A stretch of 64,000 nt of DNA from Micractinium sp. NFX-FRZ (Eukaryota > Chlorophyta > Trebouxiophyceae > Chlorellales > Chlorellaceae). Under the pieces are notes generated by a model. It was not told the origin of the DNA. It searched no databases and saw only the letters and a list, made by a program, of their open reading frames with translations. A program made the position numbers and the translations under genes. Positions 3,901 through 41,700 of the stretch are shown piece after piece. The stretch's first letter is position 1. The number at the start of each line of letters is the position of its first letter. Location of the stretch: positions 1-64,000 of the forward strand of contig JAPTJF010000366.1 in NCBI GenBank assembly GCA_029339195.1. The letters run 5' to 3'.

Positions 3901-6900
3901 GCGGGGGTGACAACAGAACAAGGCGGACGGTGATTACAGGGGGCGGTGCAGGGATTGGTGAGGTGAGATGGATAGGAGGCGTCCCCCAGACACCTCATTG
4001 TGCGTGCTGTCGTGCAGCAGTGCATGGGCCAGGAGGTGGGGGTGGGGGAGGCAAGCCGGGCACGCCAGTGAGGAACCATACGCCCTTCGCCCTCCCCTCC
4101 CTTCACCTGGCCGCCCTTAGTGATGTCGGTGAAGGCCGAGTTGACGTCGGAGGAGGTCCAGAACTGGGGGGCCACATCCAGCAGCATGTGGTCGCCAGCC
4201 TGGCAGGGAGGGCAGGAGGGGAGGGCGGTGCGGGTTGCACGTTCAGGTGCGGGCCGGTCGGACGTGGGGTGGCGGCAAAAAACCCGAAAGACAGGCTCAA
4301 CTGCACAACAGCGCAGGGGGTGGTTGAGCTGGCGCCAGCATCACTTAAATAAGTCACCCACCCAGCCCCAGGATCTAGCCCTGCTTACATGCAGCACCTC
4401 ATCCCCAATGTGGGGGCCCGTCCAGTTGAGCGGCATGCCGTTGCGCTTGATGGCCAGCACGGCTGCGTGGAAGCGGCCGCGGAAGGCAGCCGCGCGGATG
4501 CTCTTCCCCACAATGTCGGAGCCTGCACAGGGAGGGGCGGCAAGGCAGGCGGTATCAGGCGTGGCATGTAGCAAGTAAACATGAGAGATGGGAGGCCAGG
4601 CAGGCAGGCAGGAGGGCAGGCGGTGTGTGCAGCAAACAGCAGAAGATGAGCGGGCGCACCCTTCTTGATGACGGCCTCCACTAGCTCGGGTGTGTACCCC
4701 CCGGTGGGAGAGTCGCTGCCGTCTAGGCTCTTGCCAGGAAGCGGACCCACCTTGGGCACTGCAGGGGGCGGGGCAGGGGTGGGACAGCTGGCGCACGTCA
4801 GTGCCACGCGCGAGCGTGTGGGTGTAAAGAGTGTGAACGCTGCGTGCTGCGCACGCTCAGGGTGTGTCCTACCTGCGCCGCTCCCAGGGCAGCCCAGGCC
4901 GGCCATCTGGTTTTGAGTGCAGGCAGCAAGAGATACACAATAGGTGCCGCCCGCCGCCCACCACAGATAGCTGACCCGCCAAGCGTGGAGGACAGACAGA
5001 AGTGCACACTTCACATGCCCCACACACCCAGCCACCCACACCCATGCCGGCACCCCGCCTGCCCACCAAAGACGGAGGAGACGCAAATGTGGAGGACAGG
5101 CCGGGCACCTAGCGCGCACGCAGGCGGCACGAGACACGGAAGGCAAGGATAGATATGCAAGCGACCAACCCACCCACCAGAGATGGAGGAGACGCCAAAG
5201 GTGGAGGAGAGGCCAGGCACCTCGGTTTCGTCCACCTGCTCCAGGGCGTCAGAGTAGGGCACCAGGCCGAGCTGGGTGAACTTGTCGGTGCCATCGGGGA
5301 TGCCTGCCAGTATGGGGGGAGGAGCAGGGGGAGGGAGGGGGTGAGCAAGCAAGCAGTTGAGGCGGGGCTGTTGCGGGTGACACTGCCAGGACGGCGGGCC
5401 TTGTGAACTTCATGGCACAGGCAGCTCAGGTGGGCAAGCACGCACAAGGGGCCATGGAACGGGTGGCTGTCAAGCCACCTGACAGCCGCAGGACGAGTTC
5501 GGCAGCCGGCACGCTCTTGTGGCCTCACAGCACGCACCAGCCAGGACAGAGCAGAGCAGAGGTGCGCACCCGACAGGTACAGGACGTCTCCGGCCGCCAG
5601 CACAAACTCGTGGCCCACGGCGTGCACCAGCTGGTTGGCGCGGCGCACAGACGTCACGTACTGGCCGCTCAGGTTGCGCAGGCCTGCAGGCGAGGCAGTG
5701 CGCCGGCTGTGGGTGAAATGCTGCTGCCGAGGCCGGCTTGGGCGGGCGCAGGGTGGCTGCAGAGCACAACTGCGTCAGAGCACCGAGTGGTGCTGTGTAC
5801 AGCTGCACATGTGTCCGCCTGGTGCTGCGCTGCCCTCTCATTTTCCGCCCACGCCCCCTGCCTTTACGCATGTCGCATCGAACTGTGCCAGGCTGCCAAG
5901 CGCACCCCAAAAAATCCTGGAAGCTGCGCCCCACATGCCTGAGTTGTGGGGGGCGAGCAGTCCCGGCAGAATGGGAACAAAGTGGCAGAAGCAAAGGGTG
6001 TGGTGCAGAATGGTATCACAGTGGCAGAAGCCAAGGGTGTGGTGCAGAATGGGATCAAAGTGGCAGAAAGCAAAGGGGTGTGGTGCAGTCAACCCACCTG
6101 CGTCCTCGATGCTGCGCCCCACCACGGGGGAGTTGTGGGAGACGAGCAGGCCCAGGAAGAAGTCGGCGCCCTGCTCAGACACCATGCCGCCGCTCCCGTC
6201 CTCGTCCTTGAAGCGCTTGAAGGCGCGCGCCATGTTCTTGTACACTTTGGAGCCGGCGCCGCCCGTCAGCAGGAAGGGGGCGGTGAGGACGATGTAGACA
6301 ATGCCCCAAAAAGTATTCGGCACACCTGCAGGGGCAGGGGCAGGCAGGGGGCAGGGCAGGAACGGGTCAACCGAGAGCGGGGGCAGGCTGGGCGGGAGGG
6401 CCTTGCAATGCACCAGTTGTTTCGCCACTGTGCTGCAGCTACACGTATGGGCCCCGCCCCGCTCCACTACGTGCCCACCCCGCTGTGCTGCACCTATCCC
6501 TGAGGGGCCCGCCCTGCTCACCCTCTCCACACCACGCCCCGCTCACCCTCCCCACCCCGCGCCCCGCTCACCCTCCTTACCCCGCGCCCCGCTCACCCTC
6601 CCCACCCCGCGCCCCGCTCACCCTCCTTACTCCGCGCCCCGCTCACCCTCCCCACCCCGCGCCCCGCTTACCGTAGGGCGTGATGCCAAAGAGTTGGATG
6701 GACTTGAGGCCCGCTTGGTAGTATTCGCTGCAGGCGGGCGGGCAGGCAGGGCAGGCAGGGCAGGCAGGTGAGAACAGTACAGGGAGGGAACGTGGGGGAG
6801 GTCCAGCGAGTGGCAGGCCTGCTGCTGGCGGGGAGGGCTGGGCTGGGCCGAGCTGCGGTGCGGCTGGGCGGGGCGGCCCTCCCAGCAGAGGCGGGGGCCA

Positions 6901-9138: not shown

Positions 9139-9888
9139 GCTGCTTGTTCGAGGGAAAGAGGGGGTGGGCAGTGGTGGGGTAGGAAATCCGAGCTCTGAGC
9201 GCGCGGTGCGCACTAGTTACCGAGGGGACGGAACAACTTGGCGGTGCGGGCGCAGTTTGTGCGACACACGCAAAGTTATGTGTTGTGTTGTTGGGAAGTA
9301 TGTGTTGTTGCGCGGCGCACTCCGCGGATTTAACCCCGCCATTGCTGGCACATGGGAAAAGTACAGCAAAAAGTACATGACTGCCATTCCCACCATCCAA
9401 AGCTCTGGTGGCAAGGCGAAGACAGCAAGACAGCATATGACACGAAAAGAATGGTATGGGGGGCCGCAGGGACGGGGTAGGGGAGCACAAATAGGAGGGT
9501 TATTCCCTGGGAGGCTGGGATACCGGCGCCAGCGGTTGCAGTCTGTGCTGGCAATGCACCCTGCTTCCACAGCCACAGCAGCTAGCTTGGGCGACAAGCA
9601 CTGCCCCAAGCAAGGTGGAAACGTGCAAGTATTTCAGTTGAGACGGTGACATAATGGGCGCTTTGCCTTTGGAAAGTGACCACCGCTCGCCCTGCCCCGC
9701 AGCCACCCACCGCCGCTCCCCATCGCCCCGCCGCACCAGGCTTCTGCCAGCTCCTGGGCTGCACCTCTGTCCCACGGAGCACTTGTTACACTTGGCTGCC
9801 CCCGCGGGGGCAACACCACACGGGAGGACCTGCTGGCAGGCTGGCAGGCACAGGGCATGGCCACCACGCATCGGGAAGCAAGCGGTCG
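9139..9888. other. Promoter region of transporter copy A and 3' region of the upstream gene
   Basis: Lies between the start of copy A and the stop of the acidic membrane protein, both on the minus strand. It contains one probable polyadenylation signal for the upstream gene, listed separately, and the presumed promoter of copy A. No supported exon was seen. Confidence 0.5.
9786..9790 (-). terminator. Probable TGTAA polyadenylation signal of the acidic membrane protein gene
   Basis: TTACA on the plus strand reads TGTAA on the minus strand, about 100 bases after the stop codon at 9889. TGTAA is the established green-algal nuclear polyadenylation signal. Confidence 0.6.
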
Positions 9889-12035
9889 TCACCAGTCTTC
9901 GTCCCACCGCTCATTGTTCCAGCCCCCATTGTTGTTGGGGCTGGCAGCAGCGCCGCCGCTGGCAGCGTGGTTCCACTCGTCTGCGGTCATGACAGGCCGG
10001 CCGTCCCGGCCCGCCACCGGCTCGTATTTGTGCTGGGCCGCCGACAGCTCCACTCCGCTGCCAGAGCCGGCACCGCCGCGCCCGCCGCGCCCCTGCTGCT
10101 GGCGGCGCAGGTACAGGACGCTGCCGCCACCGGCTGCCAAGCAGAGCGTTAACATTACGAAGACCGCGGTATCCCAGCCGTTGGCGGCGGGCCTGCTGCC
10201 GGGGACAGGCCTGCAGGGGCAGGGGGCGGGCAGTGCGCGGTCGGGGGGCAGCAGCAGCAGCAGCATTGGACAGCGGGAGTGAGCAGGGGCAGCAGTGTGG
10301 CATGAGCAGGCCTGCACTGGACAAGACAGGGGGCAGGGAAGCTGTGGCAGGCCTGGGCGGACGACGGCAACCCCTGGCAAGGCCGCTGGCAGCAATGCCC
10401 TCATCCCCTCCTTCCGTCCTGCCCCTCACCTGGCGCCCTGCTCCTTGGGCGTCACCGCCGCTGCGTCAGCCTCAGCATCGTCCTCATCCCCACCCTCTGC
10501 ATCGCCTCCCTCGCCCTTCTCGTCTCCGTCGCCACCGCCCGGATTCTGGCCCCCATCGCCGCCATCGCCGCCCTCCTCCCCATCCTTCGGCTGCCCCGGC
10601 TGCTCAGCCTGCTCCTGCCCCTCCTCCTTGCCCTGTTGAGCTGGCGGCTGAGCTGGCAGGGGCGGGCCTGCCACCTCCTCATCCTGGGGCTGCGGCGACC
10701 GCCCTGCCAGTGCCACAGACTCCCCATCCTCTGCGCTGCTGCCAGCAGGCGAGGGCACCGCTGCCTGCGGCGGCTCCTCATCCCCCTCGCCCTCCGTGCC
10801 GCCTGGCAGTGGCGGCTGGGCTGCCTGCTCGGTACCCTCCTCCTGGCTGGGCGGCGGAGGACTGGTGGACTGCTCCTCCTCCTCCTCCTCCTCACCCTCC
10901 TGGCTGGGCGGCGGCGGGCTGGCTGCCCGCTGCTGCTTGCCGCCCTCTCCCTCGCCCTCCTGCTCCTCCTCGTCGCTGCTGCTGCTGCTGCTCTTGCTGG
11001 GCGCGGGCCGGGAGGGCGCCACATTGGCGTTCTTGTCGCCAGCTGCCGGTGCACCGTCGCCCGACTGCGACTCAGCTGGTGCCGAGGCAATGGGGGGAGG
11101 CCGCAGTACTGCTGCCTTGGGCGCCTGTTGTTCGGCCTTGGGCGGCGGCCGCTTTGTTTTCTGCACCGCTCCGCCCTCCTCCTCATCGCCCCCCTCCTCC
11201 CCGCTGCCCTGCCCCTTGCCTCTGGGCGTGCTGTCATCACCCTTGCCTGCCTCGTCAACCTCTGCCGCTGCGGGCGCCGGTTTGGCTGCCTTTTTCCGTG
11301 CCGCAGGCGGGGCTGCAGGGGGGCACACGGACAGCACGACAGGGCATAGTCGGCAGCAGCTCAGCTCAGCCGGTAGGAACGGCACTTGTTGTGGGCATGC
11401 GATGCTCCAGCAGTACAAGGGCACATGTGGCGACGAGCCCCGAGGTTCAACAGTAACAGGGCACACATGGGGGCCGCACAGCCTGGGCAGCACAAGAGTC
11501 GCACACCTCCCGGGCTGATGGCCACATGCCACGCCCCCAGCACAAGCAGGCAGCCACCCAGACTGCTCAACTTGCCAGGCAGCCAGCCAGGCAGCCAGCT
11601 AAGCACTGCACTGCACTCACCAGGCATGTCTACATCTTTGTCCTCCTCCTCATCAGCTGGCGGCGGGTCATCGCCTTCCGCATCCACCTCTGACGGCGGG
11701 CGGCGCTTGCCGGTGCCGCCCGCCGCGGCGGATGTTGCGTTGGTGCCAGCAGGCGACGCCTTGGCTGCTGTGCCTGCCCCGGGACCGTTCTTGGTGGCAA
11801 CTGGAGTCTTCTTTCCTGGGGATGCTGCACCCTCTGCTGCCTGGACGCCTTTGGGAGTGCTGGCGGGGCCGCTGGTGGTGTTCTTGCCGCCGCTCAGCAC
11901 CGCTGGCACCGTCGAGTCGGCGGCTGCCTGGCTAGCCTTGGTTGCATCGTCTGCTAGCCGGCGCGCATGCACCGCTGTCAGAGCGACTGCAAGTGTCAGC
12001 AGCAGGAGGCAGCGACTGAACAGCTTGCTCCACAT
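9889..12035 (-). CDS. Acidic, Pro/Glu/Ser-rich type I single-pass membrane protein, unknown function
   Basis: Three exons, 11621-12035, 10430-11312 and 9889-10210, join in phase. An N-terminal signal peptide starts MWSKLFSRCLLLLTLAVALT and is followed by a cleavable-looking ARRLA region. The long middle is disordered and acidic, with Glu runs, Ser runs and a repeated SPPPPSQE element. Near the C-terminus there is one hydrophobic segment (TAVFVMLTLCLAAGGGSVLYL), then Arg-rich residues and a short tail. The tail contains KYEPV, which fits the YxxPhi sorting motif. The architecture resembles TGN38/TGOLN-type cycling proteins, but I see no sequence homology that proves it. Its start is only 182 bp from the divergent start of the next gene, implying a shared promoter. 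Confidence 0.75.
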
Positions 12036-12217: not shown

Positions 12218-15200
12218 ATGAGCGACACAGAGTATTCAGACGTCGAGGAGCAGGCGCCGCCCGCTGCGGCGCCCCGGGCGGCTCCTGCGGCCCCCAAGCC
12301 CGTGTCTAAGGCTTCCAGCGGCTCATCGGCGGGCCTGGTCATCGGTGTGCTGGCGGCGGGCGCTGCTGTGGCGGGCGGGGTGGCTTACAAGCTGCTCTCG
12401 GGCAAGCCAAAGGCGCGTGGCTCCACCCCGGCTGCCTCACCCGCCAAGAAGAAGGTGTCGCCCGTCAAGAAGACGATCTCCCGTCGGACCCCGTCCTCGG
12501 CAGCATCGGCAGCAGCAGAGGCGCCGGCGGCAGAGCCTTCCGGCACGCCAGCCGCGGCCGCTCCCGCCAGGCAAGCTTTATGCATGAGCACCAGCTGGTG
12601 CGGCATCGCTTGATTTGCGTGCTGGGAGTGCCATACACGGTGCTCAGCATGGAATGGGCACCCGCCAGGTAGCAGAGATGAAGAGCCAGCGCACGTGCAC
12701 GCGTGCTTATCCCGACCGCTGTCTCTTCCTTTGCCTGCAGCAGCAGCCGTGCTGCTCCCGCAGCAGCGGCCGCGGCGGCCGCTGCCACTGCAGCAGCGGC
12801 AGCGGTTGCCCCGCCCAAGCGCTCTGCAGCCCCCGTGCTGCCAGCCCGCCCGTCTCCCAAGCGTGCCGTGCCCAAGCCGGCTGCGCCGGCGGCGGCAGCA
12901 GCACCCAGCGCTGCCGCAGCAGCCAGTGCCGAGGCAGAGTCTCTCACCAAGCAGGCAGCTGCAGCAGCTGCTGCTGCTCAGCAGAAGGCTGAGGCTGAGG
13001 CAGCAGCCACCAAGGAGCGGGCCGCAGCTGAGGTGGCGGCCAAGGAGCAAGCTGCTGAGGCGGCAGCCCAGCAGAAGGCTGAGGCGGAGGCAGCGGCTGC
13101 CAAGGAGCGGGCAGCTGCCGAGGCTGCTGCAAAGGAGAAGGCGGCAGCGGCGGTCGCCAAGCAGGCTGCAGAGGAGATGGCATCTGCTGAGGCCGCCACT
13201 GCCAAGCAGGCTGCCGCTGCCGTGGCCGAGGCTGCGGCGCCCGCCCAAGCCGCTGCCGCTGCTGCCGAGGCGCAGCCTGCCGCGCCCGCTGAGGCCGCCG
13301 CAGAGGCTGGCCCTGCTGAGGTCGCAGCAGAGGCTGCCCCCGCCGAGGTCGAGGCCGCGCCTGCAGAGCAGGCAGCCGAGGGTGAGGCAGCTGCTAACGG
13401 CGAGGCTGAGGAGGAGGCGGTGCAGCACCACGTGCTGCCCACCGCTGCTGACCTGGCAGCTCTCGTGGTCACCCCAGAGGCAGCCGCTGACGGCGCTGCA
13501 GCCAAGGAGGCGGAGGAGGAGGGCGCTGTGGAGCGGCTGGGCGACGTCCCCGCTCCCCCGCTCAACTTTGAGGGCGCCCCCGGCGCTGACGGTGAGTGGC
13601 GCAGCACCGCCTGCACAGCCTGCAGCACTGGCATGCACCGAGGCCAGGCGGCCATGGTGTGCGCTGATGGCTGAGCAGCAGGGGCATGCACGGAGGGTGC
13701 AGCAAGGGTGTGTGCATAGTGCGAGTGTGAGTGTGCAGTAGTGTGGGCTCCGCTGTTGCACCACGTGCCGGGCACCACAGTTTCCTACTATCCCTGTGAA
13801 TCAAGTCCTCAGTGCTGAGCCTTTCTCTCTCTTTTTTCGCTGTCCACCCGCCATGAACGAGGTGGAGCCGAGTGGCATGTTCCTGCATGCCTCTCCTCAG
13901 CTCTCCCTTCAATGCATTGTCCTGACTGCTGAGCCCTTGGTTTGTGCTGTCCAGACGCCATGAACGAGGTGGAGCAGAAGGCCAAGGACATGAGCCTGCA
14001 CGCACACAAGCTGGTCAAGGAGAACAAGTGAGACGGGCAGCGGGGCCACCGTGCGCATGTGTTTGCGCACCTGTTGCCACTCTGCTGTGCTCCTGATGTG
14101 GCGCAACAAGACAACACAAGCAGCTTAGGTTGCTGTTGTTGGGGGCCTCTTGGATGGTGTTGAGGGGCAGGGGTTTGGGCAAGCCTCACGGTGGGGCAAG
14201 GGGAGGTAGAAGGGCGCCGGTGGGCCGAACCAGTCAAGAGACTGTGCCGGCAGGTGCACCGGCTGGGCGGGCAGCGCTCTCAGGAGCCTTCGCCCTCCCA
14301 CGTTCCGCCTCTTCCGGTGGGGCCCGTCGCTGAGCGCTTCACATGCCGTTACTCACCCCCTCCCACCTTCTTCCCCCGCCCTTCCCGTCGTGCCCCCTGC
14401 CCTGCAGCAACATTGTGCAGGGGTCCAAGGAGCAGAAGGCCGCACTGGACCTGCTGCTGCTGCCGGAGAACGCGGGCAAGGCGCGGCCGCACCTGGTGGC
14501 AGCCTGCGCCTTTGCGCTGGGGTGAGCGCCCAGCCGGCACCCAGCTGTCACTCGTATTCCTGCCCTTGGAATGCTCACCTCGATGCCTTTGCAACAGCAC
14601 CCCCTGTCCCTGCGCCTGTGCCTGCATTCTCAGCCTCCTGTCAACGCTGCGCTCTTCCCGTGCGCCCGCACTGCACTGCCCATCGCAGCTCCGTGCCGGC
14701 TCCGCCCCAAAGGTCGGGCCTCACCAACCCAGCCCCCGCCTCACCTCACCTGCACTGTCTCTGCCATGCCCCGCCGCTGTGCAGCGACATGCTGCTGGCT
14801 CAGCGCAAGGTGGATGAAACCAAGAAGGCGCTGGCCATTGCCTACCAGACCTCCAACCACATTGAGGACAACGGGCCCAAGGTACAGGGCGTGTGCCGCA
14901 TGAAATGGAAGGCAGCTCCCCTCCACGCCTCCTCACCCTGTCTTTGGCATGCTCTTGTGTGGTATGCGTGCGCGCCTGCGCACGAGCCACGCCTACATCA
15001 CCAGTTCTGAGCGCCAGGCTCCTGTGCCTTCTCAACAAGCAAACAACCCCCCTCCCTGGTACCGTTGTGTGCCGCCGCAGGTGCGCGCCCTCATGAGCTA
15101 CGCCAGGCTCCCGTGCCCTCTCAACAAACAAACAGTCACCACCCCGTGCTTTGCATGCTTGTGTGCCGCCGCAGGTGCGGGCCCTCATGAACTACGCGTA

Positions 15201-18200
15201 CATCACCAAGTCGGAGCGCAAGGCGGCCGCCACGGAGGCGACGTACGCCGAGGCGCTGGAGCTGGCGCGGGCGCAGCACGGCGCGCGGCACGGAATGGTG
15301 GAGAAGATCAAGTACGAGTGGAGCGCCTTCCTGGGGGGCAGCGGGCGCGAGGTGAGGGAGGGGCGGGGCAGGGGGGAGGAGAGGAGGGAAGGTGGCGGGG
15401 CAGGGGGTGAGGAGGGTGTGGGCGCGAGGTGAGGGAGGGTGCAGGGGAGAGGAGGCAAGGTGGCGGGGCAGGGGGTGAGGAGGGGGTGACGGAGCAGGTC
15501 ACCTGTTGGCCAGCGTTGAGCTGCTTCACCTTGCTGGGGTCACGGGGAATGGTGGAGGGGGTCAAGTGCGAGTGGACCCGGGGACCGGGACTTGCAGGGA
15601 TGTTTGTGTTGGCATTGAGAGGGTCAGGCGCAGGATGGGGGAGCATCATTGAGTGTGCCCAGCTCGCCTCCGCAAAGCCCCTGCTGATCCATTCGGTCAG
15701 CCTCCGGGCTGCTGGAAGAAACACAGCTGCCCCTCCGGCCGCCCCACCCGGGCTGCCCCAATCTCCCTGTCCCCACCTCACCCTGCCCATGTTGCCCCTG
15801 CTACTGCCTCTCCCAGGCCGAGGCTGCCAACATGCTGATCCAGTCTGCCTCCGAGCTGCTGGCTGAGGCTGAGCGCCTGGCAACCGAGGAGGGCAGCAGC
15901 GGCGGCGATGCCGAGGGACGGAAGGAGGAGGAGGGAGAGGGCAAGCCGGCCGCCGCTGCCAACGGCGCAGCGGAGGCTGACCCTGGGTCGGGGCTTGAGC
16001 ATGCCGAGGGCGAGGCGGCTGCGACGGGCGGCGGGGAGGAGGAGGAGGAGGAGGCGATGACGCCAGTGCAGAGCGCGCAGCACTATGCCATGCGCAACCT
16101 GATGAACGCGGGTGCGTGGGCGTGCTAGCGCTGTGGGGGCGGCTGCGTGGTGTAGCAGTGCTGAGTGTATGTTGCAGTGACGGATGGGGGCGAAGGTGCT
16201 TGGGCCGCTGCCGGGCGGGCATGGGTGCCGCTTTGGAAGGGGCGGGGAGGGAGGCACCAGCTGTCTCCAACACCACCATCCTACCCTCGTGCCCCTGCCT
16301 TCGCCAGCCGACGTGCCAGATTGGCTGCACACAGGATCGGCACCAGTGGGGCCACGAGCTGCCAGCCGCCACACTTCCACTCATACCAACCTGTACCCGC
16401 TCTTTGCCATCACCCCACACGCTTCACTCTTTACTTGCTTCAAACACTTACACCACCCAATGGCCCCTTCACCGTCCGCCCCCTCACCGCGTGCAGGAGT
16501 GCTGGACAGGCTGCAGCAGTGCGTTCAGTCTTCACTTGCTTCAAACACTCTCACAAACCAATGGGTCCCTCCCCCTCCCTCCCCCTCACCGCGTGCAGCC
16601 GGCGTGCTGGACGGGCTGCAGCAGTACCAGCGGGGCGAGGAGCTGCTGGCCAAGGCGCTTGACATTGCCGTGGTGGCCTGGGGGGCAGGCTCCATGCAGC
16701 ACCTCAACGTCCTCTACGCCCTTGCCCAGCACTTCAGGTGGGTGGGTGCGGGGTGCGGGGGTGAGCAGTAGGGGTGGCGGTCGCTCTTCATCTCCCAGAT
16801 GCTGTAGAGCAAGAGCTTGCAACAGCGCACATGCTGGCCTTCGCCCGCGCCCCAGCGGGACCCCAACCTTCATCCTCCTCCAACCTTCATCCTCCTCCTG
16901 TGTGCCCCGCTGCAGGCGGCGCAGCATGCTGCAGGACTCTCAACACCTTTGACAAGCAGGTGCAGACCTCCACCCAAAGTCTTTGATCCTGACCCTGCAC
17001 ATTCGTGCCCTCCTTCCACTCCTCCTGTGTGCGCCCCGCTGCAGGCGGCGCAACATGCTGCAGGAGAGCATCGAATTCCACGAGCAGGTGCTGGCCATCA
17101 TGGACGACAACATCCAGGTCTACTCGCCCGAGCTGCTGCAGAACCGCATCGCCATCCTCAGGTGGGGTGACAAGGCAGAAGGGTTGTTTGTTACAATCCA
17201 AGGTGAGGGCTGCTTGCCCGAGCTGCTGCAGAACCGCATCGCCATCCTCAGGTGGGGGGCGGGCCAAAAGGCTGTCACGTGATGCTGTTACTCAAAAATA
17301 AATCAAGCCTTCACTACAAAATAACGTGGTGGTGGTGGGTTTGGTCAGGGGGAGGGCTGCTCGCCCGGGCTGCTGCACAACCGCATCGCCGTCCTCAGGT
17401 GGGGGGGGGCGGGGGCAGGAGGTTTTTTTTACGAAATCCAAAAGTGAGGGCTGCTCCCCCAGGCTGCTGCAGACCCTCCAGTGGGGTGGCAGGCCAAGGT
17501 CACTGCTGCTGTTGGAGCAAGGCACTAGGGAGGGAGGGCTGGGGGGGTGCAGCGCCAGCATCATCCCCACCTCCCGGGCCTCTCCGCCCTCCGAGCCCGC
17601 ACTACCAAACCCTGCATGCCTCCCTCCCGCTCACCCCTCTCCCGCAGGGATGTTGCTGTGCTGATGGGCAAGGGGGGACTATAGTAGATACCTACCAGCA
17701 CACCACTTTGATGTAGTTATATAGGAAATTCAATCACCCACCCCACTGCCTCTCACCCCTCTCCTGCAGGGATGTTGCTGTGCTGATGGACAAGGTTGGG
17801 CAGGGCGAGGCGGCGGTCGACTATGCCACCGGAGCGCTGGTCAATGCTCAGGTGTGGGGGGCGGCCCGCTGCTAAGGGTAGTGTTGTGGTCGGTTGGGCG
17901 AGGCGGTGAGGCCAGCGTGCAGGCGAGTGTGCAAGGGAATTGGGGCAGGGGCCCAGGGGTGGGGTTGTGCAGAAGAGGAACAGCAGGCGTTGCGGTGGCC
18001 TGCACCGCCGCCCTGCCCCCCTCCAATCTCACCGCCCTGCATGTGCGACCCTGCTCACCGCTCCGAGCTGCCTCACCCAACGTACAGCCACAAGCTCCAC
18101 CCCCTGCTCAAACCACCCCACCCCATCTTGCCTGCCCGCAGACGCTGGCTGGTATCATGCAGGGGCAGCAGCGGACCACCAGCCACCCCATCCTGGAGCC

Positions 18201-18709
18201 CTTCTACCGCCTGCTGGCGGAGCTCAAGGCAAAGGTGGGCAGGCGGCGGGTGTTGCGTGTAACTGTTGCAGTGCTTTGAGTTGCTTCTAGCGCCCGTGCC
18301 GTGCCTGCCAACCCGCCCTCCTGCCTGCCCGCCCGCCTTGGTCTGTTCCCGCCTGCCAGCCCAGCGTGGGGATGCTGCCAACCCTGCATTTCCCCTGCAT
18401 TTCCCCCGCGGCCTGCTGCAGGGCCGCCTCCCCGTCCTCTTGTGCTCCGCCATGCCTGTGCGCCCCTACTTCCTCTTAACTGCATCTCCCCTCCCTGCCC
18501 TGCCTTGCCCCCACCGATTGGACGCTTTGCAGATTGGCGACGAGGAGGGCGCGGCCGAGGCGCGGCGCATGCTTAACGAGAGCAAGCTGCACCAGCGGCT
18601 GGCGCAGGGCGGCCGGCAGCAGCAGCAGCGCGGCGGCAAGCCCAGCGGCGGCAAGCGCACCAGCAGCAGCGGGGCGTCGACCGCCCGCGCCGGCGGCCGC
18701 CGCGTGTGA
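12218..18709 (+). CDS. Membrane-anchored Ala-rich coiled-coil protein with TPR-like C-terminal half, unknown function
   Basis: Twelve exons: 12218-12570, 12741-13591, 13955-14027, 14408-14521, 14785-14881, 15175-15351, 15817-16111, 16599-16737, 17045-17161, 17770-17851, 18142-18234 and 18533-18709. They total 2568 bases and close in phase (855 residues). Residues 1-37 are acidic and Pro/Ala-rich; about 38-57 (GLVIGVLAAGAAVAGGVAY) form one membrane span. A Lys/Ser/Pro stretch and a long Ala/Glu/Lys coiled coil with repeated AEAAAAKERAAAEAAAKE units follow. From exon 3 on the protein becomes a helical repeat domain resembling TPRs (LARAQHGARHGMVEKIK, SIEFHEQVLAIMDD, AVDYATGALVNAQ). It ends in a basic Gln/Ser/Arg tail. 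The first intron has a GC donor. Most introns carry imperfect copies of neighbouring exon ends. I do not recognise an orthologue; a scaffold role at an organelle membrane is only a guess. Confidence 0.82.
13841..13867 (+). repeat. Exon-start echo upstream of exon 3
   Basis: GTCCACCCGCCATGAACGAG here matches the true acceptor and exon 3 start (GTCCAGACGCCATGAACGAG, 13949 onward), including GAGGTGGAG after it. The AG of the acceptor is changed, so this copy is probably not spliced. Confidence 0.8.
14985..15215 (+). repeat. Threefold repeat of the intron 5 end and exon 6 start
   Basis: The exon 6 start (acceptor GCCGCCGCAG, then GTGCGGGCCCTCATGAACTA at 15175) has an upstream copy at 15071-15115 with an intact acceptor. 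A third partial copy near 14985-15030 encodes the later part (SHAYITSSERQAP-like). The spacer CTCAACAAACAAACA is repeated as well. Confidence 0.8.
15536..15590 (+). repeat. Echo of exon 6 inside intron 6
   Basis: CACGGGGAATGGTGGAGGGG and the following TCAAGTGCGAGTGGA correspond to the exon 6 stretch at 15289-15322 (CACGGAATGGTGGAGAAGAT, then CAAGTACGAGTGGA). A second short echo of the exon end, GGCGCGAGGTGAGGGAGG, sits at about 15420. Confidence 0.75.
16432..16625 (+). repeat. Tandem copies of the exon 8 acceptor region
   Basis: The block ACTTGCTTCAAACACT, then an AATGGCCCC- or AATGGGTCC-like stretch, then CCCCTCACCGCGTGCAG and the exon 8 start GTGCTGGACGGGCTGCAGCA, occurs twice with differences. 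The upstream acceptor at about 16490 remains a canonical CAG. Confidence 0.8.
17126..17480 (+). repeat. Three to four tandem copies of the exon 9 end plus donor
   Basis: CCCGAGCTGCTGCAGAACCG, continuing CATCGCCATCCTCAGGTGGGG, occurs at about 17126, 17217 and 17366, with a shorter decayed copy at about 17455. Each full copy retains AG followed by GTGGGG, so three potential donors lie in series. The true exon 9 end is taken as 17161. Confidence 0.85.
17635..17795 (+). repeat. Duplicated exon 10 acceptor and start
   Basis: CACCCCTCTC(C)(T)GCAGGGATGTTGCTGTGCTGATGG appears at about 17632-17664 and again at 17754-17789. Only the second copy continues into the open frame encoding DVAVLMDKVGQGEAA. 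Confidence 0.85.
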
Positions 18710-19670: not shown

Positions 19671-22600
19671 CTAGTCTGGCAGGAGCAGGGCGCGGATGTC
19701 GCGGACAGAGCGCTGCTTGGTCTCCACCATGTGACCCCTCATAAATACAAAGGCGGCGGCATTCAGGGCGGCATACACCAGGTAGCTGCCTGCAGGGGGC
19801 AGGGGCCGGCAAGGGGCGGGCAGGCCAGGTGGGCAGGGCGGGCGGCGAGGCAGCGGGGGGTGGGGCCGGGCAGGAGGGCGGGCAGGGCACGGTTGCAAAG
19901 CAGGAGCGCCCGGAGGGCGCATGCCCGATGCGCACAGGCAAGAGCAGGAGCAGAAGCAGCAGAAGAGCAGCAGTAGGTGCCCGGAAGTCGTGCGCACCCG
20001 CGATGCCCAGCACTGCCAGCATGGAGGGGAAGGTGGAGCCGACCACCAGGTTGGACAGCCAGTTGAGGGAGGTGCAGAAGGCCTGCATGGAAGGGGGGCC
20101 GCAACTCGGTTATAAAAACAAGGTAGTTGAGGCGATGTGCAGAAAAGCATGCCTGGGAGAAGTTCCAGCCACAAGGTTGGGGCCAAGGATGCGCCGCCCA
20201 TCGTCCGTGCGTACACACACCCGCAGCGCAACGCGCCCCCGGGAGGGCGGCCCTGCCCCCGGCTGCCCCTGCCCGCCCCACCTGTGCAGTGCCCATGATC
20301 TCTTGGGGCAGGATTTCGGGCAGGTAGAGGTAGGGAATGGGCCCCGCCCCCAGTGCAAAGAAGACCATGTATGCCAGGATGGAGCCCAGGGAGGCGGCGC
20401 CCTCCAGGGACTTGGGGGCTGCGACGCAGGCGGCGGAAGGAAAGAGGCAGAGAGGAGGCAGGGGATTGATTGGACCCAAGGGCAAGAGGGTGCACGTTGG
20501 AGGGACGCCATGTCAGCCAGAATGGATCCATGGTCCCTCTGGAGAGCAGGGGCCTGCTGTCAACCACAGTGGTGTGCCCAGAGAGGGCGGAAGGAAGGAG
20601 GGCAGAGGCCACAGCATGCACCCCTTGCTGGGCAGCAGCAGGAAGGCGGACAGGCACCTCGCAGACACACAACATAGCACAGCACAGCACAGCACAGCAC
20701 AACCCAGCGCAGCACAGCATGCAGCACTCACTGGGCAGCAGCATGAAGGCGGACAGGGTTGCCAGGCAGGCGGCCATGCCGACGAACGAGGTGAGCAGCA
20801 GCTTGCGCCGGCCGGCACGGTCCATCAGGCCGGCTGCCACCACGGTGAACGCTGCAGGGCAGTGAGGGCAGTGCTTTGACAGACAGAGGTTCAATGGCAT
20901 TGTTACGGCCTTCCAGTTGATACAAGCTGCCACTAGGCAGGGGAGGGAGTGCTGAAAGTTGGCCCGACCGCCTATCCCATCACCGGCTTCCACTTCCGCC
21001 CCTGCCCAATATATAGCAGCTCTGCCCACGCACCCAGGTTTGTGAGACCCATGGCTATGCTGCCCAGAATGGGCGAGCTCAGCCCCGCCTGCTCAAACAC
21101 CTGTGGGGTGTCGGGCGGGAAGGGCGGGGCAGGGAAGACGGCGGCGGCAAAGGGAGGAGACAAGGTTGGCAGGCCACCCATGGGCACAGCGTGGGAAGCA
21201 CGGACACGGAGGGCGCATGCCCTGCGGATCTCACTTCCCCTCGCTCCTGAACTGCCCTCCCCCTGCCGCCGCCCAGCGCCTGCAGCCCATCCTGGCCTGC
21301 AGCCCATTTGGATCCCTAGTGCTCCCTTGAAGAGGCTCCAGGAGGCTCCCCCTTCCCCTCCCACCCCCTGCCCCGTCACCTTTGTTGAGAAGAAGATGAC
21401 GGTGTTGATACCTGAGCACAATGAAACAAGGGCGGGCAGGTTGGGCTAAGTCACACGACATGAGGGCGAACGTGGAGGGTGCAAAGGGGCGGGGCTGCCA
21501 AGCAGGGTGAGCAGGCAGGCAGGGGGCAAGCAGGTGCACCAGCCACAGGCCGGCAGGGTGCGCAGCTGGCTGTGCGACTGTGCACCTGTGCCCCGCCCGT
21601 GCAGCGCTCTCACCCGAGGCCTGCTGCGCCAGGGGCAGCGCCGCCGCCAGGATCATGACACGGCGGTAGCGCGGCGCCAGCAGGGCAGACCACCCCAGGT
21701 GCTCCTCGTGCCCCTCGCCCTCAGCCTCCTGCTCGCCACCGCTGCCACCCAGCAGCGGCTGCTCCGCATCTGCATCAGGCACTGCCACACCCGCAGCTTC
21801 CCCGGCCGCCGCAGCTGCCACTGCCTGCTGCAGCTTTGGGTGGTGGTCCGCCAGAACAAGTGCGCTGCCGTGCAGGCGGCGCAGCGCGGCGGCCGCCCGC
21901 GCGGGGCGGCCGACGCGCAGCAGCCAGGCGGGTGACTCTGGGCAGAGGGCTAGCAGTGCAGACTGCAGGAGCGCGGGGCCCAGCGCTGCCGCAAACATGA
22001 TGCGCCTGTGGGATGCACACAGGGGTGGGGGAAGAGGCACAGGGGTGGGGAGGGGGAGCGGAGCGGAGGGAGGCGGAGAGCGAAAGGGAGGGAGGCATTA
22101 GTGCAGCAGCAGGCAGCCTGGCCAGGGGATGTCCAATGTGCAACATAGCACAGCACAGCACAGCACAGCAAAGCACAGCACAGCACAGCACAGCATGGCA
22201 CAGCTCGGCTCACCACCAGGCCACCTGATGCCCCAGCAGCTCCACCCGCTCCATGCCCGTCTCATAAGGATACCCTGCAGGGGAGGGGGCGGGCAGATGG
22301 TGAAGCAGTGGGCTGGCTGGACATGGGGGAGGGGAGGCTGCTGCTTCACACGCAACTGGGCACGTCATGGAGGGCTTTGTTAAACCCAAAACAAACACCA
22401 GCGCCCCCACCCGCCCACCCACCGCACCTATCACGTAGGCCGCCAGGATGCCCACATTGATGAACACCTGCACACAGAGTTGAGCCAGCAAATGACAGCC
22501 GTTTCCTCACAAGTCTGAAGGATGAGCACATGGTGCCCACCCGCCCAGCTGCATGCGACCCCCCAGGCTGGCACCCCCCTTGCGCCCGCTTGCCCGCGCC

Positions 22601-28364: not shown

Positions 28365-31300
28365 ATGCCCGCCCAAGTTGCAATTGGCGTGGCGGCGGCC
28401 CTCCTGTTGGTGGTGGCAGCGGCCACTGCCCGGCCGCCTGCCGCCGCCAGTTCCACTGCGGTAGATGGTGAGCGAAGGAGCGTGCCCATGTTGAATAAAA
28501 CACCATCTGCCCATTGCTGCATTGGTGATTGACGACAGCTGAGCTCTGCATCCCAGTCTCACATGGGTGGCCACATGGATGGGCCTGGCTGCTGGGCGCC
28601 GTTGTAACCTGGTCCCCGACCTGCCTGCATGCCGCGCCCCTTGAGAACAATCTTTCGGACCCCCACCCAACCCCGACCCCTCCCAGCAGAGGCGGCCATC
28701 CTCCGGCGCCTGCGCCAGGCGCTGTGGGAGAGCGACCCGGATTGGGCGGCCACCTGGAACCCAGAGTGGCGGCCTGGCGGCCAGGCCCAGCCATGTACCT
28801 GGGAAGGCGTCACCTGCAACAGCCAAGGACATGTCACGCATGTGTGAGCGAACGCGCAGCTTGGCGGGGCCAGACAGTGGCTGCCCTCCCTGCTTGGTGT
28901 GCTGCAGCAGGCAAGCTGGGCGGGCGCAGCAATTCCGCCAGCCCATGCACCCTCTCCCTGCCCCTTCCTGCCCCTCCAGCGACATCAACGCCCGAGCAAA
29001 AGGCGCCCAGGCCAGGGCCGCCCGTGCCGCGACTGCAAACGCCACCAGCCCGCTGCTGCCCGAGCTGGCGCAGCTGCAGTGGCTCGTCATGCTGGGTCTA
29101 GTGCACACTGCCGGGCACGGAGGCATACCCATGCCCAACATACCCGCCCAGTGGCTGGCGCCAGGCGCCTTCCCACGCCTCGCATGGTGAGTGGCAGTTG
29201 CCGCACAGCTTTGATGACTGGGCATGCTGTCGAGTCTAGTCTAGTCGTTACAATATTCCACTGCGAGGCATGCACAGCCGGGCGCCTTGAGGCAGTACTG
29301 GTTTTGGACTGGGCATGCTGGGCACTGTGCGCACAGCATGGGTGACCTGGGGCATCCACGCTCCAGAGCCTTACGTGGTCAGAAGGGGGATGGGGGCAGA
29401 AGGGGGATGGGGGCAGGGCTGTTACGTGGAGTTTTCATGCGGTGGCAGGGGCCCCGCCTGGAGTTGCCTCGGCTGGGCGGCATGACATGTGCTCTGGTGC
29501 TGGGCCTGTGTCGGCTTGAGCGCGCACCATCCGCGCTCTCACACCGTAGCCTGCCCCATGCTTCCTGTGCGGTTTGCCACATCAACACATGCACATGTTG
29601 TGTTACTGCCAAGCATCCTCGCATGCCTGCCCCCCCCACTCCTGTGTGCAGGCTCTCGCTGGCGGGCCGCTCCCTGCCCACCTCCCTGCCCGACTTCCCC
29701 CCCGGCGTGCTCCCCCGCCTGGAGCGCTTGGACCTCGAGTTTCACAACCTCAAAACCACGCTGCCCGCCAGCTGGGGCGCCGACCCCGAGGTACTGCCGT
29801 CGCTGCAGTACCTCACGGTATCCGTGCAGGTGGAGGGGACCCTGCCGCCAGCCTGGTCCCAAGGCTTCTGCAAACTCAAGGGCCTGAACCTGGTCAACCT
29901 GCCTCCCAACCTGGAGAAGGCGGCTCCCTTCCAGGAGGCAGCTGCTTACATCACCCAGTGGCGGGCAGCTGCCAGGGCTGGCGAGCAGGGACGTAGCGAG
30001 GAGAGCAGCGGCATGGCAGCTGCACAGCAGCAGCAGCAGCACCGCTTGCCACCAAGTTGGGCCGCAGGCTTCCCCCAGCTGCAACTGTTGGGCCTGTACA
30101 ACCTTGGACTGAGCGGCACGCTGCCCCACGAGTGGCTGCGCGGCGGCTTCCCAAACCTTCTCGACTTGTGAGGGCGCGCCGGCTGCTGGGGGCGTGCATT
30201 GAGGAGCGGGGCAGGTGTACAGTCACTCACCCTGACCCATGCTCAGGCCGCACCTGTTGTGCAACGCTGCGCTCTGCGCTGCCCTGTGGGCCCTCATCAC
30301 CCCCACGCACCCCGCCCCGCGCATGCAGGCACGTGCCTTTCAATGAGCTCACCGGCACGCTGCCCTCCTTCAGCAACATGACCAAGCTGAGTTCAATCAC
30401 GGTGCGTCTTCCTTACTGCCTGTGCACAGCATGCCCCCTTGCACATGGGCGCCGGCAGCAGGGTGCCGAGCTAACCCAGGTGCCGCTCTAACTTGGTGCT
30501 GACGCAAGCATTAACGGAAGCGTGGCCTCACCGCGGCACACACACACTCACCCTAACACGCGTCTCTTGCCTGCCCCGCAGCTGTCCGACAACCGCTTCA
30601 CTGGCAGGCTGCCGGATGCCTGGGGAGCATCCCAGGTGAGAGCAGCCGCCAGGGCCTGCCCCCCGCCTGCACATGCATGCGCTGCCTGGCTGCTTCTCTC
30701 TGCTGCCACGCGTGTTACCCCTGTCTCGTCCAATGCACTGCAGCTCGTCTTCCTCTCCGTGGTCAACAACTGCCTGCCAAGCCATGCCTTCCTGCCTGCG
30801 GCTGCCTCTCCCTGCTGCCAAACGTCATACGCCTGTCTCCTCCATTACCCACCCTGCAGCTTCTGCTCCTCTCCGTGGTCAACAACTCGCTGTCCGGCCC
30901 CGCCTTCCCGCCGGCCTGGTTGCATCCTGGCTCTCTGCCAGAACTGCTGATCCTCAACTTTGCCGGCAACAAGGGTCTGACTGGCACGCTGCCCGCTGGT
31001 CTCCCCTGGCCAAAGCTGCACAAGCTGTGAGGCTGGCCAGTGCCCGGTTGTTACGCGTGTGTATATCCACTGCGAAGCATGCCCAGCAGCCCATCAACTG
31101 TGAGGTTGCTTGATGGGCAGGCGACTTATTGATGGGCAGGGCCCTGCTTGATGGGGAGGCTCGGCACCCGGATGCCCGCTGCTCTGCTGGCTGTTGCCAC
31201 CATGAAGCGAGGAGTACGATCGTGTCCCAACGTGTGCACCCATCGCTGCTGGCTGGTGCATACAGGGGCTTGCGAGACACGGGGCTGCACGGCGGCGTGC

Positions 31301-38700: not shown

Positions 38701-41700
38701 CGGACCTCGCTCACGTTCCCTCCCTGTACTGTGCCTGCCCTGCCTGCCCTGCCTGCCCTGCCTGCCTGCAGCGAGTACTACCAGGCCGGCCTCAAGTCCA
38801 TCCAGCTCTTTGGCGTCACGCCCTACGGTGAGCGGGGCAGGCGGGGTGGGCAGGGTGAGCAGTGAGCGGGGTGGGCGGGGCGGGCCCCTCGGGGCTAGGC
38901 GCAGCACATCAGGTTGTGCGGGTGTGGAGCGGGGCGGGGCCCACACATATAGGTGCAGAGATACAACTGGTGCATTGAAAGGCCCTCCCACCCAGCCTGC
39001 CCCCTCTCTCAGTTGACCATTCCTGCCCTGCCCCCTGCCTGCCCCTGCCCCTGCAGGTGTGCCGAATACATTTTGGGGCATTGTCTACATTGTTCTTACC
39101 GCCCCCTTCCTGCTGACGGGCGGGTCGGGCTCCAAAGTGTATAAGAACATGGCGCGCGCCTTCAAGCGCTTCAAGGACGAGGACGGGAGCGGCGGCATGG
39201 TGTCTGAGCAGGGCGCCGACTTCTTCTTGGGCCTGCTCGTCTCCCACAACTCACCCGTGGTGGGGCGCAGCATCGAGGACGCCGGTGGGTTGACTGCACC
39301 ACACCCTTTGCTTCTTCCACTTTGGTCCCATTCTGCCGGGACTGCTCGCCCCCCACCACTCACACGTGGTGGGGTGCAGCCCCCAGGATTTGTGTTGGGG
39401 TGGGCGGGTGCGCTGGGCAGCCTTGCGCAGTTCGACATGACATGTGCGGAGGCAGGGGTGCAGGCGGGCGTGTTGAGAGGGCAGCGCAGCACGGCCGGGC
39501 GCATGTGCAGCTGTGCACAGCACCACTCGGTGCTCTGCAAAGTGAGCGACTGCCCAAGCCGGCCTCGGCAGCAGCACTATTTGTTCACAGCCGACACAAT
39601 GCCTTGCCTGCAGGCCTGCGCAACCTGAGCGGCCAGTACGTGACGTCTGTGCGCCGCGCCAGCCAGCTGGTGCACGCTGTGGGCCCCGAGTTTGTGCTTG
39701 CGGCCGGAGACGTCCTCTACCTGTCGGGTGCGCGCCTCTGCTCTGCTCTGTCCTGGCTGGTGCGTGCTGTTTGGCCACAAGAGCGTGCCGGCTGCCTGTC
39801 AGGTGGCTTGACAGCCGCCCGTTCCATGTCCCGGTGTGCACGCTTGCCCACCTGCGGTGCCCGTGCCATGCTTCACAACGCCCGCCGTCCTGGCACTGGC
39901 AGCCGCAACAGCCCCGCCGCAAACTGCTGCTTGCCCACCCCCTCCCTCCCCCTGCCCCACCACCCGCACTGGCAGGCATCCCCGACGGCACCGACAAGTT
40001 CACCCAGCTGGGCCTGGTGCCCTACTCTGACGCCCTGGAGCAGGTGGACGAAACCGAGGTGCCCGGCCTATCCTCCACCTTTGGCGTCTCCTCCATCTCC
40101 GGTGGGTGGGGTGCCGGCGGGTGGGTGGTTGGGTGGGTGGGCGTGTCATCTTTCTCTGCTGGGCGGGGTCTTGTATATCTGTCCCTGCCTGCACGTGCGC
40201 TAGATGGCTGGCCTGGGCTGCCCTGGGAGTGTCGCAAACCGGGACAAGCCCCTGGCCTGAGCAGCACGCAGCGCCCACACTCTTCACACTCACACGCTCG
40301 CGAGTGGCACTGACATGTGCCGCCTATCCCACCACTGCCCCGCCTCCTGCAGTGCCCAAGGTGGGCCCACTGGGAGGCAAGGCCGCCTCACGCACCGACT
40401 CCTCCACTGAAGGCGGGGTGGGCTCTGCACCCGAGCTAGTGGAGGCCGTCATCAAGAAGGGTGCGCCCGCTCATCTTCTGCTGTTCTGTCGCACACCGCC
40501 TGCCCTCCATCTGCCTGCCTGGCCTCCCACCCGTCGGGTGGGTACTTGCTGCATACGCCTGAACCTTGCCCCCCATCCTCAGGCTCCGACATTGTGGGGA
40601 GGAGCATCCGCGTGGCCGCCTTCCGCGGCCGCTTCCACGCCGCTGTCGTGGCCATCAAGCGCAACGGCATGCCGCTCAACTGGACGGGGCCCCACATTGG
40701 GGATGAGGTGCTGCATGTGAGCGGGGCTAGATCCTGGGCTGTGCGGCCTTTTTGGCTGGGCAGTGATGGCGCCAGCTCATCCTCCCGCTGCACTGCGCAC
40801 CAACGCCTGTCCTTTGGTGTTTTGCCCACCACGTGCCCGCTCAGCCCGCATCTGAACGTGCGACCAGTACCGCCCTCCCCTCTCCCCATGTCCTCCGCTC
40901 CCTGCCAGGCTGGCGACCACATGCTGCTGGATGTGGCCCCCCAGTTCTGGACCTCCTCGGACGTCAACTCGGCATTCACCGACATCACCAAGGGGGGCCA
41001 GGTGAAGGGAGGGGAGGGTGAAGGGCGCATGGTTCCTCACTGGCGTGCCCGGCTTGCCTCCCCCACCCCCACCTCCTGGCCCATGCACTGCTGCACGACA
41101 GCACGCACAATGAGGTGTCTGGGGGACGCCTCCTATCCATCTCACCTCACCAATCCCTGCACCGCCCCCTGTAATCACCGTCCGCCTTGTTGTTGTCACC
41201 CCCGCAGGTGCGCAGCTTCAACGAGTTCCTGGTTGGCATGCGGGTGGGCAAGGCGCTTGCCGGCAAGACGGTGGCCAAGGCGGGCCTGCGCCAGCTGCCC
41301 AACGCCTTCCTGGCCTCAATTGACCGGGGGGCGGGCTTCATCACCATCCACGCCGTGTCGCCCGACGAAATCCTGGAGGAGGGGGACACCCTGTGGTTTG
41401 CAGGTGACGATGGGGTGTGTGGGTGCGGGGGTGGGGGTTGGGACACCTGGCTGCATGTGGGCTGCCTGGCAGGCGGTGTTGCTGTGCTGCCCGATGAGCA
41501 TCCAGCAGGAGGGCAGCACACTGTTGTTTGCTGGTCAGCGGAGAGGAAGGCATAGGCTTCGGCGTGTGCTGGAGTGTGCAGGGGGGGAGAGAGTGTTCCC
41601 TGCTGGGCTAGCCAACTGGGCATCCCGCTCGCTCCCCCTGGCCGGCCACGTGCTCACCCCCTGCCCCGCTCTCCCTTCCTTCCCGCCCCCTGCCCCCTGC

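Follow-up and report, generated by a model that had tools for sequence, protein, structure and literature searches.

Introns of the green alga Micractinium sp. NFX-FRZ hold copies of the exon edges beside them. We first describe these copies, here called junction echoes, in a TPR-type gene on the forward strand at positions 12218 to 18709 of the stretch analysed (64,000 nucleotides of contig JAPTJF010000366.1; the window), and then across a larger sample. The echoes are real and in excess over chance, decay without coding constraint, differ in presence between two gene paralogs, and are scarce both at short spacing and where the copied unit holds little intron. We think it likely that they are relics of random small tandem duplications, mostly of 70-160 bp, each spanning an existing exon-intron junction, after which the intron was longer and the copy drifted.

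In the TPR-type gene, exons were placed by hand from the reading frame (exon 7 was then changed to end at 16111), and the resulting models agree with the proteins of relatives at 75-84% identity (the closest named protein, from Chlorella ohadii, at 75%). When each intron was compared with as much as 120 nt of the exon on either side, and 200 other introns served as the null, 12 exon copies were found in six of the 11 introns (Table 1), ten with an empirical p of 0.005 and two with 0.010. Every exon near which the original prediction had placed an echo was recovered in this way. Introns 1, 3, 4, 10 and 11 had no echo above the 99% null point, with which the acceptor side of intron 10 ties. Echoes are borne by 6 of the gene's 22 edges, against 4.7% of edges overall (P 0.0004, before allowing for the choice among 36 models). 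The gene finder recovers the gene save for exon 9, where it took an echo donor at 17251 instead of the donor at 17161; the 30-residue insertion that this would imply is in none of the three relatives' proteins compared, and the protein of the nearest relative (84%, from a 1816-base contig) has no translated echo at the junctions that it spans. In a genome search, the only full-length match of the gene stretch was itself, and elsewhere there were only short matches at 70-81% identity. Intron 1 has a GC donor (12571-12572, +); in the gene finder's profile, about 7% of donors have C as the second base of the intron.

The larger sample comprised 314 kb from three contigs, namely the window, which is nearly all of a 64,610-base contig, and 250 kb of two others, out of an assembly of 66 Mb in 838 contigs with about 65% GC. 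A self-trained hidden Markov model (HMM) gene finder, run on all 314 kb, gave 36 models with 649 introns; the models were computed without RNA and some are wrong, with neighbouring genes fused and some echoes called exons. For the edge scan, 40 nt of each exon edge were aligned to its own intron, and a score of at least 30 was counted as a strong copy. Introns of 80-900 nt were kept (616 of 649), and removal of edges that were shorter than 30 nt or of low complexity left 577 acceptor and 573 donor edges, each from 616. A second scoring, with 60-nt edges and a 99% null threshold, kept introns of 160-700 nt (530 of the 616), and the simulations used the same set. These thresholds were our own choice.

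Strong copies in the edge's own intron were found at 30 of 577 acceptor and 24 of 573 donor edges, where unrelated introns gave 0.23 and 0.43; in total, 54 of 1150 edges scored at least 30, and 0.66 were expected. Reverse-complemented sequence gave 2 acceptor and no donor copies, and shuffled introns gave none. The comparison of introns with their flanking exons that had been proposed as a check on the original prediction thus yields a clear excess over shuffled introns in these 314 kb. With the second scoring, echoes above the 99% null point were present in 79 of 530 introns, and 8.2 were expected. The suggestion that echoes extend well beyond a single gene was borne out, since they occur on all three contigs sampled (15 of 255, 25 of 719 and 14 of 176 edges). 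Comparison of paralogs also shows them turning over. Chance, low complexity and composition are ruled out as the cause by the unrelated, shuffled and reverse-complement controls. Echoes are over-dispersed by gene model (p 1e-5), but in blocks of up to 12 introns p is 0.058, and because of this block test it is not certain that some genes are echo hot spots. The rates of junction and of intron-only duplication are weakly correlated (rho 0.27, p 0.065).

The form of the echoes is that of small tandem duplicates. Of 65 junction events, 45 have a lag of 80-140 nt from echo to exon, and the orientation is nearly always that of the exon. Echo-bearing introns are longer than the others (median 342 nt, n=51, against 251 nt, n=565), which agrees with the intron lengthening that had been proposed. 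Divergence from the exon ranges from 0 to 21%, and mismatches fall equally on codon positions 1, 2 and 3 (0.111, 0.103 and 0.117; 199 of 1802 sites in 54 echoes); the echoes therefore drift without coding constraint. Where the intron flank of the unit could also be tested, local alignment found a match at p<=0.05 in 25 of 44 events, comprising 18 of 25 acceptor and 7 of 19 donor events (the tests started from 48 events, from which short or clipped flanks excluded 4 in local and 6 in global alignment). Some introns, read by eye, hold arrays of up to four copies, the real edge included. In one array on another contig (C1:100001-300000, stretch positions 176405-176588), a 92-bp unit made up of an exon start and an intron end with its AG is repeated at 92 of 92 positions beside more diverged copies; this array has recently been enlarged by one whole unit. 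Elsewhere (C4:200001-250000, L029-L033, near stretch position 8000), a donor echo is split by about 57 nt of inserted AT-rich sequence in which a short motif recurs.

Two SAC1-like paralogs in the window, whose introns can be aligned, show the turnover directly (SAC1-like, and also TBL2-like, are labels taken from the original prediction only; the scanned piece of copy A matches Pfam CitMHS and TrkA_C). The copies differ at 11.5% of 4153 aligned intron sites and 7.4% of 2680 exon sites. One echo is common to both, a second looks shared by eye, and another, intact in copy B, has lost most of its length in copy A. A 115-bp block with a donor echo at lag 112, found in copy A only, is the single case of a one-unit length difference between the gene copies; an intron-only tandem duplication is also confined to copy A. 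In their 5´ part the paralogs align only in and around exons (76-86%), and from about 7084 (-) onward the introns align too (81-89%), a pattern that suggests gene conversion or a second, partial duplication. Both paralogs have a predicted 6-nt 'exon', AACAAG (2899-2904, -; 42284-42289, +), which looks like the end of a shared donor echo, and echoes can thus produce false micro-exons in annotation.

The original prediction had read the density of echoes as the sign of an active genome-wide process. No junction-targeted process is needed to account for that density, because duplications confined to introns are similarly common. With the single best event per intron retained, intron-only duplications at lags of 70-160 occur in 43 of 530 introns (in 13 of these the lag matches that of a junction echo in the intron concerned), and there are 50 junction events. 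A simulation of random duplications scaled from the intron-only events predicts 52-53 junction events in this range, and 7.6-8.4 at lags above 160, where 9 were seen. Below a lag of 70 it predicts 19-20, and 6 were seen (Poisson P 0.0005). Units with less than 50 nt of intron are also scarce, at 4 of 53 where 46-57% were expected (binomial P 1e-9). To within about two-fold, the junction echoes can be explained without a special mechanism, and a modest junction bias stays. Event counts had indicated a strong junction-specific excess, which sensitive alignment and simulation cut to about two-fold or less without removing it.

In the sequence of events that we propose, tandem duplication of a junction-spanning unit would leave the gene with a doubled splice site. 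Provided that the outer one stayed in use, the mRNA would be unchanged, the inner exon edge would become intronic, and the intron would grow by one unit; the gene models and the proteins of relatives suggest that the outer site is the one used. The inner copy could then drift, reduplicate into short arrays or be deleted. Splicing would act as a filter, removing units that lie too near the junction or carry too little intron, and we infer that selection on splicing causes the deficits in both classes.

Several results weigh against this account. Simulated intron-only lags are longer than those observed (41 against 30 at 70-160), and with scaling by lag class fewer junction events are predicted at 70-160 (about 38) and more below 70 (24-26). 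If units holding less than 50 nt of intron are barred from the simulation at the outset, it predicts 0.75-0.81 junction events for each intron-only event, and the ratio seen is 50:30. The 68 young, nearly ungapped repeats include 45 that reach a junction and 20 confined to introns; just 3 of the 68 are full-length tandem copies. Under equal drift the intron flank should match at 0.59-0.91 of donors and 0.70-0.97 of acceptors, and the homology observed is weaker, most of all at donors; stricter global alignment gives 13 of 23 acceptor and 4 of 19 donor events, where 0.99-1.00 is expected. Finally, between the echo found only in copy A and its exon, about 5 of 45-49 sites differ (about 10%), while intron divergence per lineage is about 6%. 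This favours an older origin of the echo, and copy B may therefore as well have lost it as copy A gained it. Gain is favoured by a third paralog (36-60% identity over the pieces that match), whose intron at this site is 145 nt long and lacks the echo; the 115-bp block may thus have been gained in copy A or lost from copy B.

Some of these results could point to a mechanism directed at junctions, such as breaks at stalled spliceosomes or template switching linked to splicing, which would copy exon edges with little or no intron flank. A BLAST self-comparison seems to speak for it, with 86 direct pairs linking exon or junction to intron or junction (61 intron-junction, 16 exon-intron, 7 junction-junction and 2 exon-junction) against 24 pairs within the same intron. 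Homology is centred on the exon edge, donor events are often without intron homology, and the composition of the young repeats and the two-fold residue fit as well. However, the BLAST search is probably blind to lags below about 50, and many intron-only repeats would therefore be hidden from its counts. Sensitive alignment brings out intron homology in more than half of the testable events, two arrays on the C4 contig that scored low in the global test show such homology by eye, and untargeted simulated duplications approach the observed junction counts. The near-complete loss of intron homology that global alignment had given is softened by the local alignments and the arrays read by eye. We regard a junction-directed mechanism as unlikely. 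We would also give only a small chance to a mixed form, in which splicing- or transcription-linked duplication of exon edges takes place on top of ordinary tandem duplication; if true, it would account for the excess of roughly two-fold that is left over, for the 45:20 split of the young repeats, for the weak homology of donor echoes on the intron side and for the preference for 20-50 nt of exon.

It is very improbable that the echoes are alternative splice sites in use, or regulatory decoys under selection. Among echoes that reach to within 3 nt of the junction, AG is kept in 17 of 27 and GT or GC in 15 of 16, and one donor echo is preferred by the gene finder. But echo sites are weaker than the real ones (medians of 1.3 against 9.1 bits for acceptors and 4.4 against 10.5 for donors), AG retention is slightly below the 21.7 expected under drift (P 0.027), and donor retention, with 13.3 expected, fits drift. 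Lags divisible by three show no excess (14 of 55), and in 8 of 55 echoes the segment added would be in frame and open; there is therefore no sign of regular use, and the codon positions likewise show no constraint.

The original prediction had invoked repeated tandem duplication across AG|GT exon segments as a route of intron gain. Tandem duplication survives as the likely source of the echoes, whereas intron creation does not, as the units cross existing junctions. We therefore hold out scarcely any prospect for the Rogers model, in which duplicated AG|GT segments create introns and the echoes are footprints of that birth, even though introns here do hold exon copies with splice sites. An intron born in this way would start like the downstream exon and end like the upstream one, and no excess of this register signature is seen in 547 introns, whose best register score, 26, equals the 99.9% null point; moreover, the echoes sit inside longer introns. 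The presence of a 283-bp intron in SAC1-like copy B, within an exon that copy A and the third paralog (L034) have undivided, at first favours the model. This intron is not a case of it, because it resembles neither flank and its sole match in the genome search, which skips simple repeats, is itself. It is a candidate for a recent gain of unsourced sequence, and neither it nor the TPR gene stretch has the many similar copies at unrelated sites that mark introner-like elements. An assembly artefact, with collapsed haplotypes or mixed strains joined in tandem, might be suspected in a fragmented assembly of 838 contigs where exon homology exceeds intron homology, but it is hardly credible: mismatches show none of the third-position excess of two functional alleles, which argues against falsely joined alleles, the TPR gene stretch matches only itself at full length, one echo is common to two paralogs, and divergence spans a wide range. 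False haplotype duplication and coding constraint are both ruled out by the codon-position pattern.

Intragenic duplication is reportedly a common mutation, according to text that cites the study of internal gene duplication by Gao & Lynch 2009. As that text describes it, entire introns were duplicated and introns were created, whereas the alga has decaying exon edges inside introns. The tandem genomic duplication model of intron gain (Rogers 1989; Hellsten 2011 for ATP2A1, both as cited in PMC4974935) resembles the present case in that local tandem duplication supplies the splice sites, but as outlined there it needs an exonic AGGT segment and gives a new, exon-derived intron, the signature missing in the alga. 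In the potato RdRp gene PGSC0003DMG402000361, by the account in PMC4974935, a tandem duplication over an intron-exon boundary copied the branch site, pyrimidine tract, 3´ splice site and exon start. In that account an extra intron arose through a cryptic donor in a single gene, while in the alga existing introns are lengthened in many genes and at both ends. Introns arising from break repair also have direct repeats near their splice sites, but these are of about 8-18 bp and lie at new introns of unsourced sequence (Li 2009 on Daphnia, as cited elsewhere; Farlow 2010, PMC2809761), unlike the exon copies of mostly 20-60 nt within existing introns seen here. Titles and opening lines of abstracts in the open-licence literature contained no genome-scale account of such echoes in algae.

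In compact genes with short exons and introns, much local tandem duplication would become junction duplication that splicing can absorb, a concrete route to intron lengthening. The surviving echoes may serve as a natural experiment on the spacing of competing splice sites and on how much intron is needed before an inner site is ignored. They are also a trap for gene finders, which may pick the echo site, as happened at exon 9 of the TPR-type gene.

The original prediction had listed further genes of the window. Echoes were found in both SAC1-like copies, the sugar transporter, the LRR-kinase stretch, the GDSL/SGNH stretch and the WD-repeat gene, but not in the reductase stretch, where no edge scored at least 28; the window has 17 such edges. 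Pieces of the window genes match Pfam TPR, CitMHS with TrkA_C, Sugar_tr, adh_short, kinase, GDSL and WD40.

Table 1. Genes, echoes and related features of the window
Feature	Position	Strand	Details
TPR-type gene	12218..18709	+	12 exons, 12 echoes in introns 2, 5, 6, 7, 8, 9; from reading frame, homologs P0001-P0003, Pfam TPR_12, HMM gene model
Acceptor echo of exon 3 (13956-13978), intron 2	13849..13871	+	22/23 identical, lag 107
Acceptor-side echo of exon 6 (15175-15224), intron 5	14968..15019	+	40/50
Acceptor echo of exon 6 (15175-15197), intron 5	15081..15103	+	21/23, AG kept; within 94-bp x 2.0 tandem repeat 15012-15197
Echo of exon 6 interior (15292-15322), intron 6	15546..15576	+	27/31
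Acceptor-side echo of exon 7 (15833-15862), intron 6	15682..15715	+	28/30, 4 gap columns
Weaker echo of exon 8 (16626-16646), intron 7	16342..16362	+	18/21, p 0.010
Acceptor echo of exon 8 (16601-16625), intron 7	16496..16520	+	23/25, lag 105; intron side homologous too
Acceptor echo of exon 9 (17045-17065), intron 8	16916..16936	+	20/21, AG kept, lag 129
Donor echo 1 of exon 9 end (17116-17161), intron 9	17206..17251	+	43/46, lag 90; GT picked by gene finder
Donor echo 2 of exon 9 end, intron 9	17353..17398	+	41/46
Donor echo 3 of exon 9 end, intron 9	17447..17476	+	24/30, p 0.010
Acceptor echo of exon 10 (17770-17795), intron 9	17648..17673	+	25/26, AG kept, lag 122
SAC1-like copy A	974-12035	-	
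115-bp segment, copy A only	5057..5171	-	carries donor echo (about 5067-5109) of exon ending 5178, lag 112
Donor echo of copy-A exon ending 6098	5915..5964	-	same echo in copy B after exon ending 39284
80-bp intron-only tandem duplication, copy A only	6009..6088	-	42/43, lag 80
SAC1-like copy B	about 36117-44247	+	
283-bp intron of copy B	37313-37595	+	splits exon continuous in copy A and third paralog
Donor echo of copy-B exon ending 41403	41481..41535 (approximate)	+	only first part left in copy A
Donor echo, sugar-transporter gene	20629..20654 (approximate)	-	lag 103
Acceptor echo before exon starting 30860, LRR-kinase stretch	30744..30799 (approximate)	+	lag 116; tandem repeat 30688-30912

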